Below, piece after piece: positions 3,796 to 24,407 of a stretch of 42,671 bases of DNA. Location: IMG/VR virus record IMGVR_UViG_3300049032_000049, positions 1 to 42,671 of that record, one strand, 5' to 3'. The DNA is from a virus. A model generated the notes under the pieces. It was not told the DNA's origin and searched no databases. It worked only from the letters and a program-made list of their open reading frames with translations. Made by a program: the position numbers and the translations under genes. Every line of letters begins with the position of its first letter. The first letter of the stretch is position 1.

Positions 3796-4152
3796 CTAAA
3801 CCCTCAATATGCCTTTGTACAAAACCGATAATCCAGACACTTTAATCTTCATGGCCGATTGCACGTTGTAGGTAACGCTATCAACGGTTAACCGGTCATT
3901 CACTGCCGGTGCTGTAACGCCCACAACGCTCATAATAAATCGGCTATCAGTGCGCAGGACGGTCGTGTCTTTCATGTCTTCGGCATCAACAGCGGAAACG
4001 TAAATCTTGCACGCCTGAGTTGCTGTAGTTTCTGCATTGGTGCCGGTTGCCGGATCATAAGCGCTGCCAGTCACGCGAATAAGCGAACCAACCTCGCCGT
4101 ATTTCTTTAGCAGGCGGTCAGCTACGTTAATGGCAGAATTGGATAGCGCCAT
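3796..4152 (-). CDS. Head-tail connector / neck protein
   Basis: 118 residues with an N-terminal helix (NVADRLLKKYGEVGSLIRV) followed by a beta-rich body. Size and position between a gp6-like adaptor and a gp10-like protein fit the head closure (stopper) slot. The start overlaps the upstream stop by 1 base. There is no decisive motif; the role is inferred from synteny. Confidence 0.65.
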   Translation of the reverse strand: MALSNSAINVADRLLKKYGEVGSLIRVTGSAYDPATGTNAETTATQACKIYVSAVDAEDMKDTTVLRTDSRFIMSVVGVTAPAVNDRLTVDSVTYNVQSAMKIKVSGLSVLYKGILRV

Positions 4153-19894: not shown

Positions 19895-21256
19895 TTAATC
19901 AAATCCTTTCTTCTGCCGCCCATAACTTTGCTGTTCTTTACTATCTTGCCAGTCAAAAATATAACTAGATGAGTCAAAATTAATAAATCTTGCGAATTGC
20001 AACTCAGCACCTAAAACATCGGTGCCAACTTCGCCCTCCCTGAATTTCGACGTGATGAATTCAGCCATGCCTTTGTTCGGCGTGTTTTCGTTGTAGTATT
20101 CGTCGCGATAGATAAACGTGATTATGTCGGCGTCTTGCTCAATCTGCCCCGACTCCCGCAGGTCTGACATTGATGGGCGCTTGTTGCCTTGCTTCTCTAC
20201 GCCACGATTAAGCTGTGACAAGGCCATTACCGGACAGCCCAAAGTTTTTGCCATAGCTTTGATTTCGCGACTAACGCTTGATACTTCCTCGAAACGGTTT
20301 TTAGCTTTTGAGTTTGTCATCAGTTGCAAGTAGTCAATTACCACCAGCCCAAGCTTGTTGTATCGGTTAAATTTTCTCGCGATGGCCTTTGCTCGATTAA
20401 TATCAATCGCCGGAATATCCACAATATGAATTTTCAGGTCTTTCAAAATCGTTGTCGCAGTTGATAGCTTGTGCCAGTCATCCTCCAGTAGCTTTCCTGT
20501 GCGGATGCGGCCAGATGGCAACCCACCTGACGCACTCAAGAGACGGTCGGTAAGTTCGTCCTTACCCATCTCAAGCGAAAAGATCAAAACCTCTTTGCCT
20601 TGTCTTGCTTGGTTGAGCGCAACGTTGAGAGCAAATGCCGTTTTACCTTGACCTGGGCGCGCAGCTAGAACCCACATGGCAACCTGTGATATTCCCTGAT
20701 AGCGCTCATCCAGTGCGTTAAAGCCAGTCATCAGCCCGCGCGGCTTCTTGTCGTGGAACTTTTCGTCAATCTCCTTAATTCTGGCTTTCAGGATCACATT
20801 GAAATTAATAACCTCGGCACCGTCTCTGCGCTCAAGGCCTGAAAGTTCGCCGTGTAGCGTGTCTAACTTGTCGTCTACTGGGATCGATTCATCGTCGCCC
20901 AGCTCAGCGATACGCTGGCCAGCCTCGGTTATGCGGCGCTCCATTGCGCGATCTGCCAAAATACTGGCGTATGCCTTAACGTTTGCAGCACTGGGGGTGT
21001 TGTTCGCTATCTCCACCAAGTACCCAAGGCCGCCAACCCTTTCCAGTTCGCCGCTATCGTTTAATTTCTCGCTCAGGGTAATCACGTCGACAGTTTTACC
21101 AGTCGCTCCCATATCGCAAATGGCAGCGAATATGGCGCGGTTGTCGATATTGTAAAAATCGTCCGCCGTGCATATCTCCAAAACGTCATCCAGTCGATTG
21201 GGATCTAACAGCAATCCGCCAATCACGCTTTGCTCTGCTTCGATGCTGAATCTCAT
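19895..21256 (-). CDS. dnaB: Replicative DNA helicase (DnaB family)
   Basis: 453 residues. The N-terminal domain (EAEQSVIGGLLLDPNRLDDV) is followed by RPGQGKTA at about 200-207 (Walker A) and VVIDYLQLM (Walker B). The block ALSQLNRGVEKQ ... RPSMSDLRESGQIEQDADI is the DnaB H3/H4 signature. The hexamer unwinds DNA 5' to 3' at the fork and recruits host primase. It overlaps the initiator gene by 4 bases, an O-P-like arrangement with a complete helicase instead of a loader. Confidence 0.95.
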   Translation of the reverse strand: MRFSIEAEQSVIGGLLLDPNRLDDVLEICTADDFYNIDNRAIFAAICDMGATGKTVDVITLSEKLNDSGELERVGGLGYLVEIANNTPSAANVKAYASILADRAMERRITEAGQRIAELGDDESIPVDDKLDTLHGELSGLERRDGAEVINFNVILKARIKEIDEKFHDKKPRGLMTGFNALDERYQGISQVAMWVLAARPGQGKTAFALNVALNQARQGKEVLIFSLEMGKDELTDRLLSASGGLPSGRIRTGKLLEDDWHKLSTATTILKDLKIHIVDIPAIDINRAKAIARKFNRYNKLGLVVIDYLQLMTNSKAKNRFEEVSSVSREIKAMAKTLGCPVMALSQLNRGVEKQGNKRPSMSDLRESGQIEQDADIITFIYRDEYYNENTPNKGMAEFITSKFREGEVGTDVLGAELQFARFINFDSSSYIFDWQDSKEQQSYGRQKKGFD

Positions 21257-22011
21257 TTGTCCTCTCGCTTATCTCTGTTTTTCATTGCAGTCATGTTTTG
21301 TTGTCCAAGTGTCGTTAGCTGGTATCCAGTGCCATCGTTCCACCAAAGCTTAAACCAGTTGCCACGAACCGCCTTGCTGAACACTGCGCGCCAATCCTTG
21401 TACCGCTTGCTGTCATCAGTGTATCGAGCCTTGAACTCTACCCATGCTAACCGAAGGTAATCAGGATCTATCCCAGCATCTTGCGCATACTCGAATATCG
21501 GATTGTCATCAGGTATTGGTTTTTCGCCAGATTCTTTCAAGATTTCCATCCATCTAGAAAAAGTTACCAGCGGCTTGCCGGTGGGCTTATCTTTTTTTAC
21601 TGGTTCTTGGTTATTGGTTATTGGTTTATGGTTATTGGTTAGTTCATCACTTGTTGAACATGTGTTTAACGCTTGTTGATCATCTGCTTGTTTTTGTCTA
21701 GCTTCTGCTGACTTTTTTCCAGCATTTGATCGTTTTTCCTGCTTTTCCCTGTAATCAATGATTTCTTTCTCTATCCGGCCATGAATCCATTTATTATCCT
21801 GATTGACAAAATACCGGCCTAAAACATAGTCAACTTCTTGCTGGTATTCTCGTAAACCTATCAAGCGAGCAACATCTGATGAGCACCCGTTGAACGGCTG
21901 CTCAGCAAGATAATACTCATCAATTAACCTGCGATAGGCTAAGTCTTCAATTGGTGAAAGGCCTTTTGTGTGCGATGAATAGTCGCCAATATTGAATTGG
22001 AAGTAGTGCAT
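21253..22011 (-). CDS. Replication initiator (DUF1376 / YdaU-like)
   Basis: 252 residues. The N-terminal 60 (HYFQFNIGDYSSHTKGLSPI, then AYRRLIDEYYL) are the DUF1376 winged-helix-like domain of phage O-type initiators. The middle is a low-complexity Asn/Pro/Thr linker encoded by 7-bp iterons at 21601-21642. The C-terminal domain has FSRWMEILKESGEKPIPDDN and WVEFKARYTDDSKRYKDWRA. It is expected to bind the origin and load the adjacent helicase. Confidence 0.82.
   Translation of the reverse strand: MHYFQFNIGDYSSHTKGLSPIEDLAYRRLIDEYYLAEQPFNGCSSDVARLIGLREYQQEVDYVLGRYFVNQDNKWIHGRIEKEIIDYREKQEKRSNAGKKSAEARQKQADDQQALNTCSTSDELTNNHKPITNNQEPVKKDKPTGKPLVTFSRWMEILKESGEKPIPDDNPIFEYAQDAGIDPDYLRLAWVEFKARYTDDSKRYKDWRAVFSKAVRGNWFKLWWNDGTGYQLTTLGQQNMTAMKNRDKREDK
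21601..21642. repeat. Six 7-bp iterons inside the initiator gene (putative origin)
   Basis: Six contiguous 7-mers: TGGTTCT, TGGTTAT, TGGTTAT, TGGTTTA, TGGTTAT, TGGTTAG. The neighbouring 60 bases contain two CTTGTTGA-A/T-CA units and an imperfect palindrome GTTGAACATGTGTTTAAC. Iterons within an O-type gene mark the lambda origin, so this is a good candidate ori. The repeats encode the linker TNNHKPITNNQEP. Confidence 0.65.
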
Positions 22012-22163: not shown

Positions 22164-22576
22164 AGCTCAGGCACCACCAATACAGTAGAGTTTCTGTGAT
22201 CGCGAGCTATGCGTGATAGGCGAGTCTTGGCGATACCGAAGCGCTTTTTAGCTGCTTTACGGTCATCTACCAATTGCTGGGTTAGCTTGCAGCATTCGCA
22301 AAGCTCTGGCTGGTCTTCGCCTTCCGGAAGCTCTGGCTCATCGCCACATTCTTCGTATGGGTATTTGGAATTGTTCCAGCGATCATATTCAAGGTGCTTT
22401 GTATTCCAATCCCAAAGCAGCTCAAAGCATTGTTTTTCAGTGTCAGCGGCACATCTTCTAACGTAGTAGCCATGCTCATTCATTCGCTGAGTAGATTCCG
22501 ATATTTGCTCGCCAAGCCGGATTATCTCAAGTCTTGCCGCGTCATACTCAAGGATTGCTCTTAGTTCGTAGCTCAT
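22160..22576 (-). CDS. Hypothetical protein
   Basis: 138 residues from ATG at 22576, sharing one base with the rha TAA (TAATG). A long helix (LRAILEYDAARLEIIRLGEQ) is followed by CGDEPELPEGEDQPELCECC, an acidic Cys-rich loop, and then a basic helix. Possible zinc binding via CECC. Position between rha and the initiator suggests an early replication-time role. No family recognised. Confidence 0.72.
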   Translation of the reverse strand: MSYELRAILEYDAARLEIIRLGEQISESTQRMNEHGYYVRRCAADTEKQCFELLWDWNTKHLEYDRWNNSKYPYEECGDEPELPEGEDQPELCECCKLTQQLVDDRKAAKKRFGIAKTRLSRIARDHRNSTVLVVPEL

Positions 22577-23244
22577 TATTTTGCACCCCACAATTTAGCG
22601 ATCCACTCCACGCCTTTAGGTGTGAATTTGGCGCTGGTGTAGTTATGATCGTTGTCGCCGGTACCGGTAGTCACGTAAAAGCGCCCAGCGTCGATATGGG
22701 GCGCGTATGGCACCCACTCGCCAGCCAGTTTGTACATGATTTGCTTGTCTTGCAGGAATGCGCGGAAGTCGTTCTCTTTGGCCTTCAGCAGCTTGCACAC
22801 TTGACGAAAGCCTAGGTTTCCCGTGGATTCCACATATCGCTCCACAAACTCAACAGCGGGCTTCTGGTGCTCGATTTGAGCGGCTTGGGCTTGGATTACT
22901 TCCTGCTGATCGGCGGCAAGGCGCAGCGCCTCGGCAAACGTTTTCGGGATTGCTTGATGGTTGCTTGATTCGAGCTCTTGCCAGCGGTCAACCAGTGCTG
23001 CGGTAAACTCCGGGGATAGGCGGGCAATGATAACCAAGCTATCGCGCTTATCGCATAGATACTCAGGATATTCTTGCTTGTTTTGTTCGTTTAGGTAGCT
23101 GGATAGTGTCGTATTTTTTAGGACACCCCCATCGATTAATGTGCTAATAAGTTTTAGAGTGTTGTCATGGCGTTTATCGGCTAACTTCGATAATTCGCGG
23201 CTAGACATTTTTGGTTGTGAATTGCTCTGAATAACTTGCAACAT
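22576..23244 (-). CDS. rha: Rha-family regulatory protein with KilAC domain
   Basis: 222 residues. Residues 10-100 fit the Rha domain (MSSRELSKLADKRHDNTLKL ... LVIIARLSPEFTAALVDRWQ). A coiled linker leads to a KilAC/ANT C-terminal domain (GFRQVCKLLKAKENDFRAFL ... GRFYVTTGTG ... FTPKGVEWIAKLWG). Such proteins are phage antirepressor or regulators, often affecting lysis-lysogeny. GGGG about 8 bases before ATG lies directly after a long terminator-like hairpin, so expression is probably controlled at the leader. Confidence 0.85.
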   Translation of the reverse strand: MLQVIQSNSQPKMSSRELSKLADKRHDNTLKLISTLIDGGVLKNTTLSSYLNEQNKQEYPEYLCDKRDSLVIIARLSPEFTAALVDRWQELESSNHQAIPKTFAEALRLAADQQEVIQAQAAQIEHQKPAVEFVERYVESTGNLGFRQVCKLLKAKENDFRAFLQDKQIMYKLAGEWVPYAPHIDAGRFYVTTGTGDNDHNYTSAKFTPKGVEWIAKLWGAK

Positions 23245-23258
23245 GGAATTTACCCCAT

Positions 23259-23348
23259 AAAAAAACCGCTTAGGCTAGCTGGGTGGCTTTTCATTATTGC
23301 CCTCGGGGTCAACTTCCCCACAATAATGAAACCAGCTAACCTAAACGG
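23259..23348 (-). terminator. Very long bulged hairpin plus U7 in the rha leader
   Basis: In the minus-strand RNA 23348-23332 pairs with 23282-23266 (17 bp, two G-U). Then 23331-23321 pairs with 23299-23289 (11 bp perfect), with a six-base bulge at 23288-23283 and an apical GGGG/CCCC stem. Seven U follow (23265-23259), then the rha Shine-Dalgarno and ATG. The two variant positions are wobbles on the minus RNA but C-A mismatches on the plus RNA. It looks like a terminator or attenuator controlling rha and replication genes. Confidence 0.8.
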
Positions 23349-23374
23349 TCTCGTTGTTGAATATTTCGGAACTT

Positions 23375-23431
23375 GCACCCCTCGCCACAAGGGGTTGCGC
23401 TTTCGCATCTCGGGTAAGATGCTACTTGCGC
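23375..23431 (-). other. Two further leader hairpins upstream of rha
   Basis: SL1: GCGC/GCGC and GCATCT/AGATGC around the loop CGGGTA (plus-strand sense), 23397-23431. SL2: GCACCCCT (23375-23382) pairs with AGGGGTTGC (23390-23398) with one bulged base. SL1 and SL2 share two bases and may compete. Together with the long hairpin they make a structured 5' leader of about 190 bases. Confidence 0.6.
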
Positions 23432-23465
23432 TTGATTAGTATAATCAACTATTCTGTAGTTGCAA
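23432..23465 (-). promoter_or_regulatory. Promoter with palindromic operator for the rha leader
   Basis: Minus strand: TTGCAA (23465-23460), 16 bases, TATACT (23443-23438). The -10 lies inside the perfect inverted repeat TTGATTA-GTA-TAATCAA (23432-23448), so a bound dimer would block it. It overlaps the end of the preceding gene and drives the structured leader. Confidence 0.65.
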
Positions 23466-23742
23466 CTGGATTTTTAAGATCACACTCAATACGCTTGGCT
23501 GCCTTCTCAATAGCAGACTGGCGAGACTTCATGGCCTTGTATTCCTGATCAAGATCAAAACGACGCTGTGACCGGTAATCGTAGTCCAAGCTCTCGCTTA
23601 AATTATCGATCATCATGCTGCCCAAGTCGTAATAATCAGCGCGCAATTCGTCACAAGTAAAATCCTTGTACTCAGTTGGTGAAACGTAGTCTGCCATTGC
23701 GATAGATGGCGCCAGGATTAAAGCTAGTGTTAAAAGTTTCAT
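23449..23742 (-). CDS. Small secreted (periplasmic) protein
   Basis: 97 residues with a signal peptide, MKLLTLALILAPSIAMA then DYVSPTEY; cleavage is predicted after Ala17. The mature part is helical with two Cys (TCDELRADYYDL ... AKRIEC) that could form a disulphide. AGAGG stands 7 bases before ATG. It probably acts in the periplasm; host modification or exclusion is only a guess. Confidence 0.72.
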   Translation of the reverse strand: MKLLTLALILAPSIAMADYVSPTEYKDFTCDELRADYYDLGSMMIDNLSESLDYDYRSQRRFDLDQEYKAMKSRQSAIEKAAKRIECDLKNPVATTE

Positions 23743-23752
23743 AAATTACCTC

Positions 23753-23780
23753 TGTATAATCAATATTTAGGATTAAGCAA
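23753..23780 (-). promoter_or_regulatory. Promoter copy C (TTGCTT-N16-TATACA)
   Basis: Minus strand TTGCTT (23780-23775), 16 bases, TATACA (23758-23753), followed closely by GAGG and ATG of the secreted protein gene. It shares the core TTGATTATACA with two copies upstream and the palindromic copy downstream. Confidence 0.5.
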
Positions 23781-24176: not shown

Positions 24177-24204
24177 TGTATAATCAATTTCTAGGCAGTT
24201 GCAA
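24177..24204 (-). promoter_or_regulatory. Promoter copy B (TTGCAA-N16-TATACA)
   Basis: Minus strand TTGCAA (24204-24199), 16 bases, TATACA (24182-24177), inside the end of the upstream gene; the core TTGATTATACA overlaps its TGA stop. It precedes the 125-residue gene. Confidence 0.5.
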
Positions 24205-24379: not shown

Positions 24380-24407
24380 TGTATAATCAATTAATCGGGG
24401 GTTGTAA
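24380..24407 (-). promoter_or_regulatory. Promoter copy A (TTACAA-N16-TATACA)
   Basis: Minus strand TTACAA (24407-24402), 16 bases, TATACA (24385-24380), with the shared core TTGATTATACA and then GAGGTGG and ATG. It overlaps the 3' end of the preceding gene. Confidence 0.45.

Follow-up and report, generated by a model that had tools for sequence, protein, structure and literature searches.

A structured leader RNA ending in an intrinsic terminator is probably an RNA switch for phage replication genes

We analysed a 42.7-kb virus record of an uncultured phage (42,671 nt; hereafter the window) with a leftward replication operon that includes a rha/Ant-type antirepressor, a primosomal-type protein and DnaB. 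The RNA transcribed just ahead of this operon is a folded leader of roughly 170 bases with a transcription stop signal at its end, and it is probably an RNA switch for the replication genes (Table 1). Comparison with related phage contigs supports a selected RNA structure, read from sequence, that ends in a terminator before the operon. We propose that the conserved leader is a conditional transcription terminator at the operon entry, in which the two proximal hairpins (HP1 and HP2) control closure of the distal one (HP3), a proposal that we hold to be about evenly balanced between right and wrong.

Table 1. Elements of the leader and of the neighbouring operon in the window
Feature	Position	Strand	Remarks
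97-aa upstream gene	23449..23742	-	End overlaps leader promoter; neighbours the leader also in L211 and L212
Sigma70-type promoter, TTGCAA-N16-TATACT	23438..23465	-	-35 inside end of 97-aa gene
Palindrome TTGATTA-TAC-TAATCAA	23432..23448	-	Proposed operator; not kept in relatives; probably incidental
HP1	23397..23431	-	Begins at predicted +1
HP2	23377..23395	-	Stem ACCCCU/AGGGGU; loop with GUGGC (segment a, about 23384-23388)
Linker	23351..23376	-	UCAAC (segment b, about 23356-23360), complementary to HP3 apical loop
HP3, long bulged terminator hairpin	23264..23350	-	-49 kcal/mol; GGGG/CCCC apex
HP3 lower stem, 19 bp	23332-23350 with 23264-23282	-	
HP3 upper stem, 11 bp	23321-23331 with 23289-23299	-	
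HP3 segment b', GUUGA	in apical loop	-	
HP3 segment a', GCCAC	3' bulge, about 23283-23287	-	
U7 tract, intrinsic-terminator tail	23259..23265	-	Immediately after HP3 stem; first bases can lengthen the stem
Shine-Dalgarno GGGG and spacer	23245..23256	-	Ahead of rha ATG at 23244
rha/Ant-type antirepressor	22576..23244	-	phrog_63 anti-repressor, E 3e-66; first gene behind terminator
Primosomal-type protein, replication operon	21253..22011	-	phrog_9327 and others
DnaB-like replicative helicase, replication operon	19895..21256	-	phrog_19, E 1e-119

A conserved leader built from three hairpins

Six related IMG/VR contigs (L208, L212, L211, L222, L227 and L220) have the same layout before the same replication operon. 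Two of them bear rha, L003/L212 and L002/L208, and these are the only exceptions among 80 rha loci, which in general lack the leader; L208 is cut at the contig end so that HP3 alone is visible, and its upstream half was not found at the other contig end. The remaining four were reached via the upstream 97-aa gene, the helicase and the HP1 pattern. Their leader is of the same kind, the first gene of the operon encoding a protein of about 50 aa (KYPYKSPEQ...) instead of rha, followed by a further replication-type gene and then DnaB. DNA scans of viral contigs with the HP1 loop-E pattern gave mostly coding matches and, as true relatives, only L222 (also L229) and L227; the 97-aa and ~50-aa neighbour genes had no relative in genome contigs, and blastn of the leader against named phages gave no match. 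What is kept across the relatives is the promoter spacing, the position of HP1 at the predicted +1 and the junction between HP3, the U6/7 tract and the gene, a terminator hairpin with U6 or U7 standing directly ahead of the first gene in all seven leaders.

All the elements that the initial annotation had described for the leader are present: two adjacent small hairpins, then a bulged helix (lower stem 19 bp, upper stem 11 bp) with a GGGG/CCCC apex, seven U, the Shine-Dalgarno and the rha ATG. The leftward leader RNA folds with a minimum free energy of -95.6 kcal/mol, compared with a mean of -60 for shuffled sequences (z -8.1; 0/200 shuffles as low), while the z-score of the opposite strand is -4.6. 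HP3, described at the outset as larger than a normal terminator, is by a wide margin the most stable hairpin followed by a T run in the window (the next reaches -33.9 kcal/mol); with U7 directly behind this stable hairpin, it has the sequence form of an intrinsic terminator. The two G-U positions noted earlier in the lower-stem arm do read U-G in the leftward RNA and A-C on the other strand; in the relatives they are U-A or unpaired, a pattern consistent, at the sequence level, with selection on the leftward RNA.

Covariation in homologous rha leaders had been suggested as a check, and it is found: HP1 and HP2 covary, as does the lower stem of HP3. HP1 consists of an outer stem (GCGC/GCGC), a loop-E-like internal loop (AAGUA/GAAA) and an apical stem (GCAUCU/AGAUGC); in hand alignments it covaries with L222, L212, L211 and L220, with two compensatory positions in the outer stem and three in the inner stem. 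Aligned in the same manner, the HP2 stem has two compensatory positions (its L212 counterpart is AUCCUC/GGGGAU) and the terminator stem of the other subtype has six. In the 19-bp lower stem of HP3, 96.5% of the cells are paired and five pairs are changed on both sides, a count that rests on three sequences only (window, L208 and L212); 1 of 500 shuffles was as good, and sliding the partner destroys the signal. Comparison of the sequences thus shows the promoter layout and the predicted stems of HP1, HP2 and HP3.

The AGUA/GAAA part of the HP1 internal loop is kept in L222 and L227, and internal loops differ between subtypes. An AGUA/GAA internal loop resembling the loop-E (sarcin-ricin) motif is seen at 23397-23431 in the window, 2496-2530 in L222 and 4401-4433 in L227; L211 and L212 have another internal loop in its place. 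No Rfam covariance model reached its gathering score in the window, and permissive thresholds returned nothing relevant for the window leader or its relatives. A weak match to RAGATH-18 (18.9 bits against a gathering score of 44.9, E 1.4), an RNA family linked to IS607 TnpB (PMC11061315) as its guide RNA, was set aside: it is explained by an AGUAG...AAA internal loop common to both, and the relatives gave no such hit.

The leaders also appear to be modular. HP1 is common to L211 and L212, which differ in HP2 and HP3; the loop-E-like HP1 is common to the window and L222, and the remainder is different. Judged by these sequences, phages swap HP1 separately from the HP2+HP3 unit, and HP2 and HP3 travel together, as is expected if these two must match each other.

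Long-range pairings between HP2, the linker and HP3

In the helix listing of each leader, the HP2 loop finds its complement in the bulge that directly precedes the HP3 3' arm: GUGGC/GCCAC in the window, GUGGUG/CACCAC in L212, GUGAGAG/CUCUCAC in L220 and GUGACAA/UUGUCAC in L211, L222 and L227. A second complementarity, between the linker and the apical region of HP3 (UCAAC/GUUGA in the window; AGCUAAAA/UUUUAGCU, CACAAAU/AUUUGUG and GGUAAACAA/UUGUUUACC across the other leaders), spans 7-9 bp in L212, L220, L211 and L222 compared with 5 bp in the window, where both long-range helices are only 5 bp each. The segments follow each other in the order a (HP2 loop), b (linker), c (terminator 5' arm), b' (apex), a' (bulge) and c' (terminator 3' arm), meaning that a-a' and b-b' are mutually nested and both cross c-c'.

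To guard against picking, all 36 pairs among nine unpaired segments were tested over four independent leaders. The HP2 loop/HP3 bulge pair gave a Fisher P of 6e-5 and the linker/apical loop pair 2e-5, the next best of the 36 reaching 0.13; these values come from segments defined after the sequences had been inspected and from only four independent HP2/HP3 sequence pairs. The match matrix of the linker/apical pair is less specific across leaders, and in the three rha-type leaders alone its P is 0.02-0.03. The two long-range pairings, as predicted from sequence, are in this sense statistically supported. A further candidate, pairing of the HP1 loop with the Shine-Dalgarno (UUACCC/GGGUAA in the window), is not conserved (Fisher 0.14) and was rejected. 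Energetically, either long-range pairing alone would cost at most about 4 kcal/mol in L212, L211, L222 and L220 before the 3' arm is present; in the window, the price of forcing the long-range helices, calculated with a nested model in which HP2 is opened, is about 7-21 kcal/mol.

A conditional terminator and the competing explanations

The leader had been proposed to be a conditional terminator or riboregulator. The selected structure with its terminator is borne out by covariation, and the conditional part is what we infer. We find this reading the most economical: in every relative the terminator is immediately followed by the first replication gene, leaving no space for a second promoter. 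Transcription would start at the first base of HP1, and HP1 and HP2 would fold at once. HP3 and the U tract would then act as an intrinsic terminator directly before the first gene, so that rha (or its ~50-aa substitute), the primosomal protein and DnaB would be made only by read-through. During HP3 synthesis, the apical loop could pair with the linker, and the bulge before the 3' arm with the HP2 loop; both pairings could arise while c' is still to be synthesised, and they lie on either side of the position from which the terminator stem has to zip up. They may in this way delay or block terminator closure, and such antitermination is the role that we consider most likely for them. Control could be exerted by whatever binds HP1 and HP2, or by transcription speed; regulated read-through, its direction and its signal are put forward here as a model.

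The predicted geometry favours the antiterminator role in the other subtype: its 24-bp stem has b' on top and b a few bases from the base, so b could hardly reach the finished apex, and b-b' pairing and a closed terminator should exclude each other. Once complete, the terminator stem greatly exceeds the alternative in stability, so antitermination could work only kinetically. Another possibility is that the pairings serve as tertiary contacts holding HP3 together, which would promote termination; in leaders of the rha subtype they might be compatible with the closed hairpin if the RNA bends sharply at the bulge. Only tentatively do we raise the possibility that such pseudoknot-gated terminators form a class of phage regulatory RNA not described before, with loop contacts from the 5' hairpins to the bulge and apex of the terminator deciding, in place of a dedicated protein, whether the replication operon is transcribed.

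Gating of translation, suggested earlier from the closeness of the Shine-Dalgarno to the U tract, did not gain specific support: the relatives differ in how far the start codon lies from the U tract, and an identical U7-ATGGGGTAA junction is also present behind plain small terminators in unrelated phages. The junction CGGTTTTTTTATGGGGTAA was likewise discarded as a diagnostic mark, being found also behind small terminators at tail genes of enterobacterial phages. In these unrelated enterobacterial-type phages (L202, L203, L205-L207, L209 and L210), CGGTTTTTTTATGGGGTAA stands shortly ahead of the start codon of tape-measure or tail genes. A translated leader-peptide attenuator was rejected too: the 52-aa frame of the window is kept in part in L208 only, shifts frame or hits stops in L212, and is absent from the other subtype.

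Decisions on phage replication are mostly attributed to repressors and antiterminator proteins; to our knowledge, RNA-only control is known from a few cases (put, P4 CI and IsrK). By analogy, the layout of the leader is most like that of put RNA, and it recalls IsrK and P4 CI in that antirepressor or replication genes would be placed behind a terminator controlled by RNA. If our reading is right, these cases would be joined by a compact RNA element, not represented in Rfam, in which a terminator set directly on the replication operon is tied physically to upstream hairpins; the pairing specificity varies between phages while the architecture stays, which makes the idea directly testable.

The put comparison leads to another explanation, in which HP1 and HP2 would bind the elongating RNA polymerase and confer processive resistance to terminators, HP3 being the first terminator overridden. 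Put RNA of the HK022 type acts by protein-free antitermination, binding the zinc-binding domain of the RNA polymerase beta' subunit. In place and layout the leader does resemble HK022 putL, with two adjacent stem-loops from about +1, just past an early promoter and ahead of terminators and early genes (PMC9378689); HP1 and HP2 are one unpaired base apart in the window, and the loop-E-like internal loop of HP1 is conserved in three leaders. However, the first stem of putL (AGACG-N7-CGUCU), present in HK022, is missing from the leader, its seven matches elsewhere in the window being at chance level, and the HP1 internal loops differ between subtypes. A put-like mode of action would also leave unexplained why the HP2 loop matches the HP3 bulge. 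The leader shares no sequence features with put, and it differs from put in its one large built-in terminator, whose bulge matches the loop of the second hairpin. We regard it as rather unlikely.

As a terminator, HP3 with U7 is of the classical kind, and phage tail genes offer other examples of a terminator standing right ahead of a Shine-Dalgarno; HP3 might thus be a plain leaky terminator that ends an upstream early operon and lets a fixed fraction of transcripts through, HP1 and HP2 only shielding the RNA 5' end. Such a terminator would not need so long a stem, nor would it be expected to have a one-sided bulge at a constant place and long-range complementarity, and a dedicated promoter lies just ahead in every leader with that part visible, so we judge this explanation improbable.

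We give slightly less credit still to a trans-acting RNA, in which the terminated RNA of ~170 nt would accumulate and use the HP2 loop and the linker to pair with the HP3 of further transcripts under synthesis, and so govern how far the read-through mRNA is terminated or translated. IsrK of prophage Gifsy-1 is a unit of promoter, short structured RNA with alternative structures and intrinsic terminator, whose read-through encodes an antirepressor (PMC4825925), and the P4 CI RNA controls termination before replication genes (PMC4825925), RNA pairing in the seqA-seqC leader being linked to this termination. Variation of the pairing specificity between phages, as in immunity groups, would fit as well. 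Unlike the processed, trans-acting CI RNA, however, the leader has its complementary segments in the HP2 loop and the terminator hairpin of the same RNA, and pairing in cis would be faster; no Rfam family matches it, C4 and IsrK included, and compared with IsrK its operon contains replication proteins. Like this leader, attenuators and transcriptional riboswitches combine competing 5' pairings with an intrinsic terminator ahead of the first gene, but the window leader matches no known ligand-binding class in Rfam, its alternative structure is formed through loop contacts, not by a simple antiterminator hairpin, and it lacks a conserved leader peptide. Finally, a DNA-level element (cruciform, replication origin or protein-binding inverted repeat) would suit a large inverted repeat adjoining replication genes, but G-U pairs only in the leftward RNA, a U tract on that strand only, the promoter directly upstream, the compensatory changes and one U-G/U-A change make it very improbable.

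The promoter and its surroundings

The promoter described in the initial annotation, with its -10 inside the palindrome, has its sequence elements on the minus strand, and the leader coordinates 23,245-23,465 fit. TTGC-N18-TATAMT occurs once in the window, with 0.29 expected. By itself the promoter match is unexceptional, but it is conserved among relatives, as TTGCAA-N16-TATAAT in L211 and L212, TTGCTT-N16-TATAAT in L222 and L227 and TTGCAC-N16-TATAAT in L220. TTGC and the 16-base spacer are kept in 6/6 leaders with a visible promoter (window included), and in these six the outer stem of HP1 starts about 6-7 bases past the -10, at the predicted RNA start.

The idea that an operator gates this promoter fared less well. 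The palindrome is missing from the leaders of L211, L212, L220, L222 and L227, and its left half belongs to a promoter-like repeat found at three upstream gene starts. Perfect 7-bp inverted repeats are not rare either: the window has 22 with a spacer of 0-10, two of them with a spacer of 3 or less.

The promoter-like repeat (TTGCxx or TTACAA, then TTGATTATAC) lies on the minus strand of the window at 23439-23465, 23754-23780, 24178-24204 and 24381-24407, ahead of four consecutive units, and is also present in L211, L212, L222 and L227. In three of the four units it overlaps the Shine-Dalgarno/start region (TTGATTATACAAATGAGGTGAATTATG), so that transcripts from there would be almost leaderless. 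L220 has, just upstream of its leader promoter, a near-perfect extra hairpin (TCATGTATAG...CTATACATGA) at 3870-3905.
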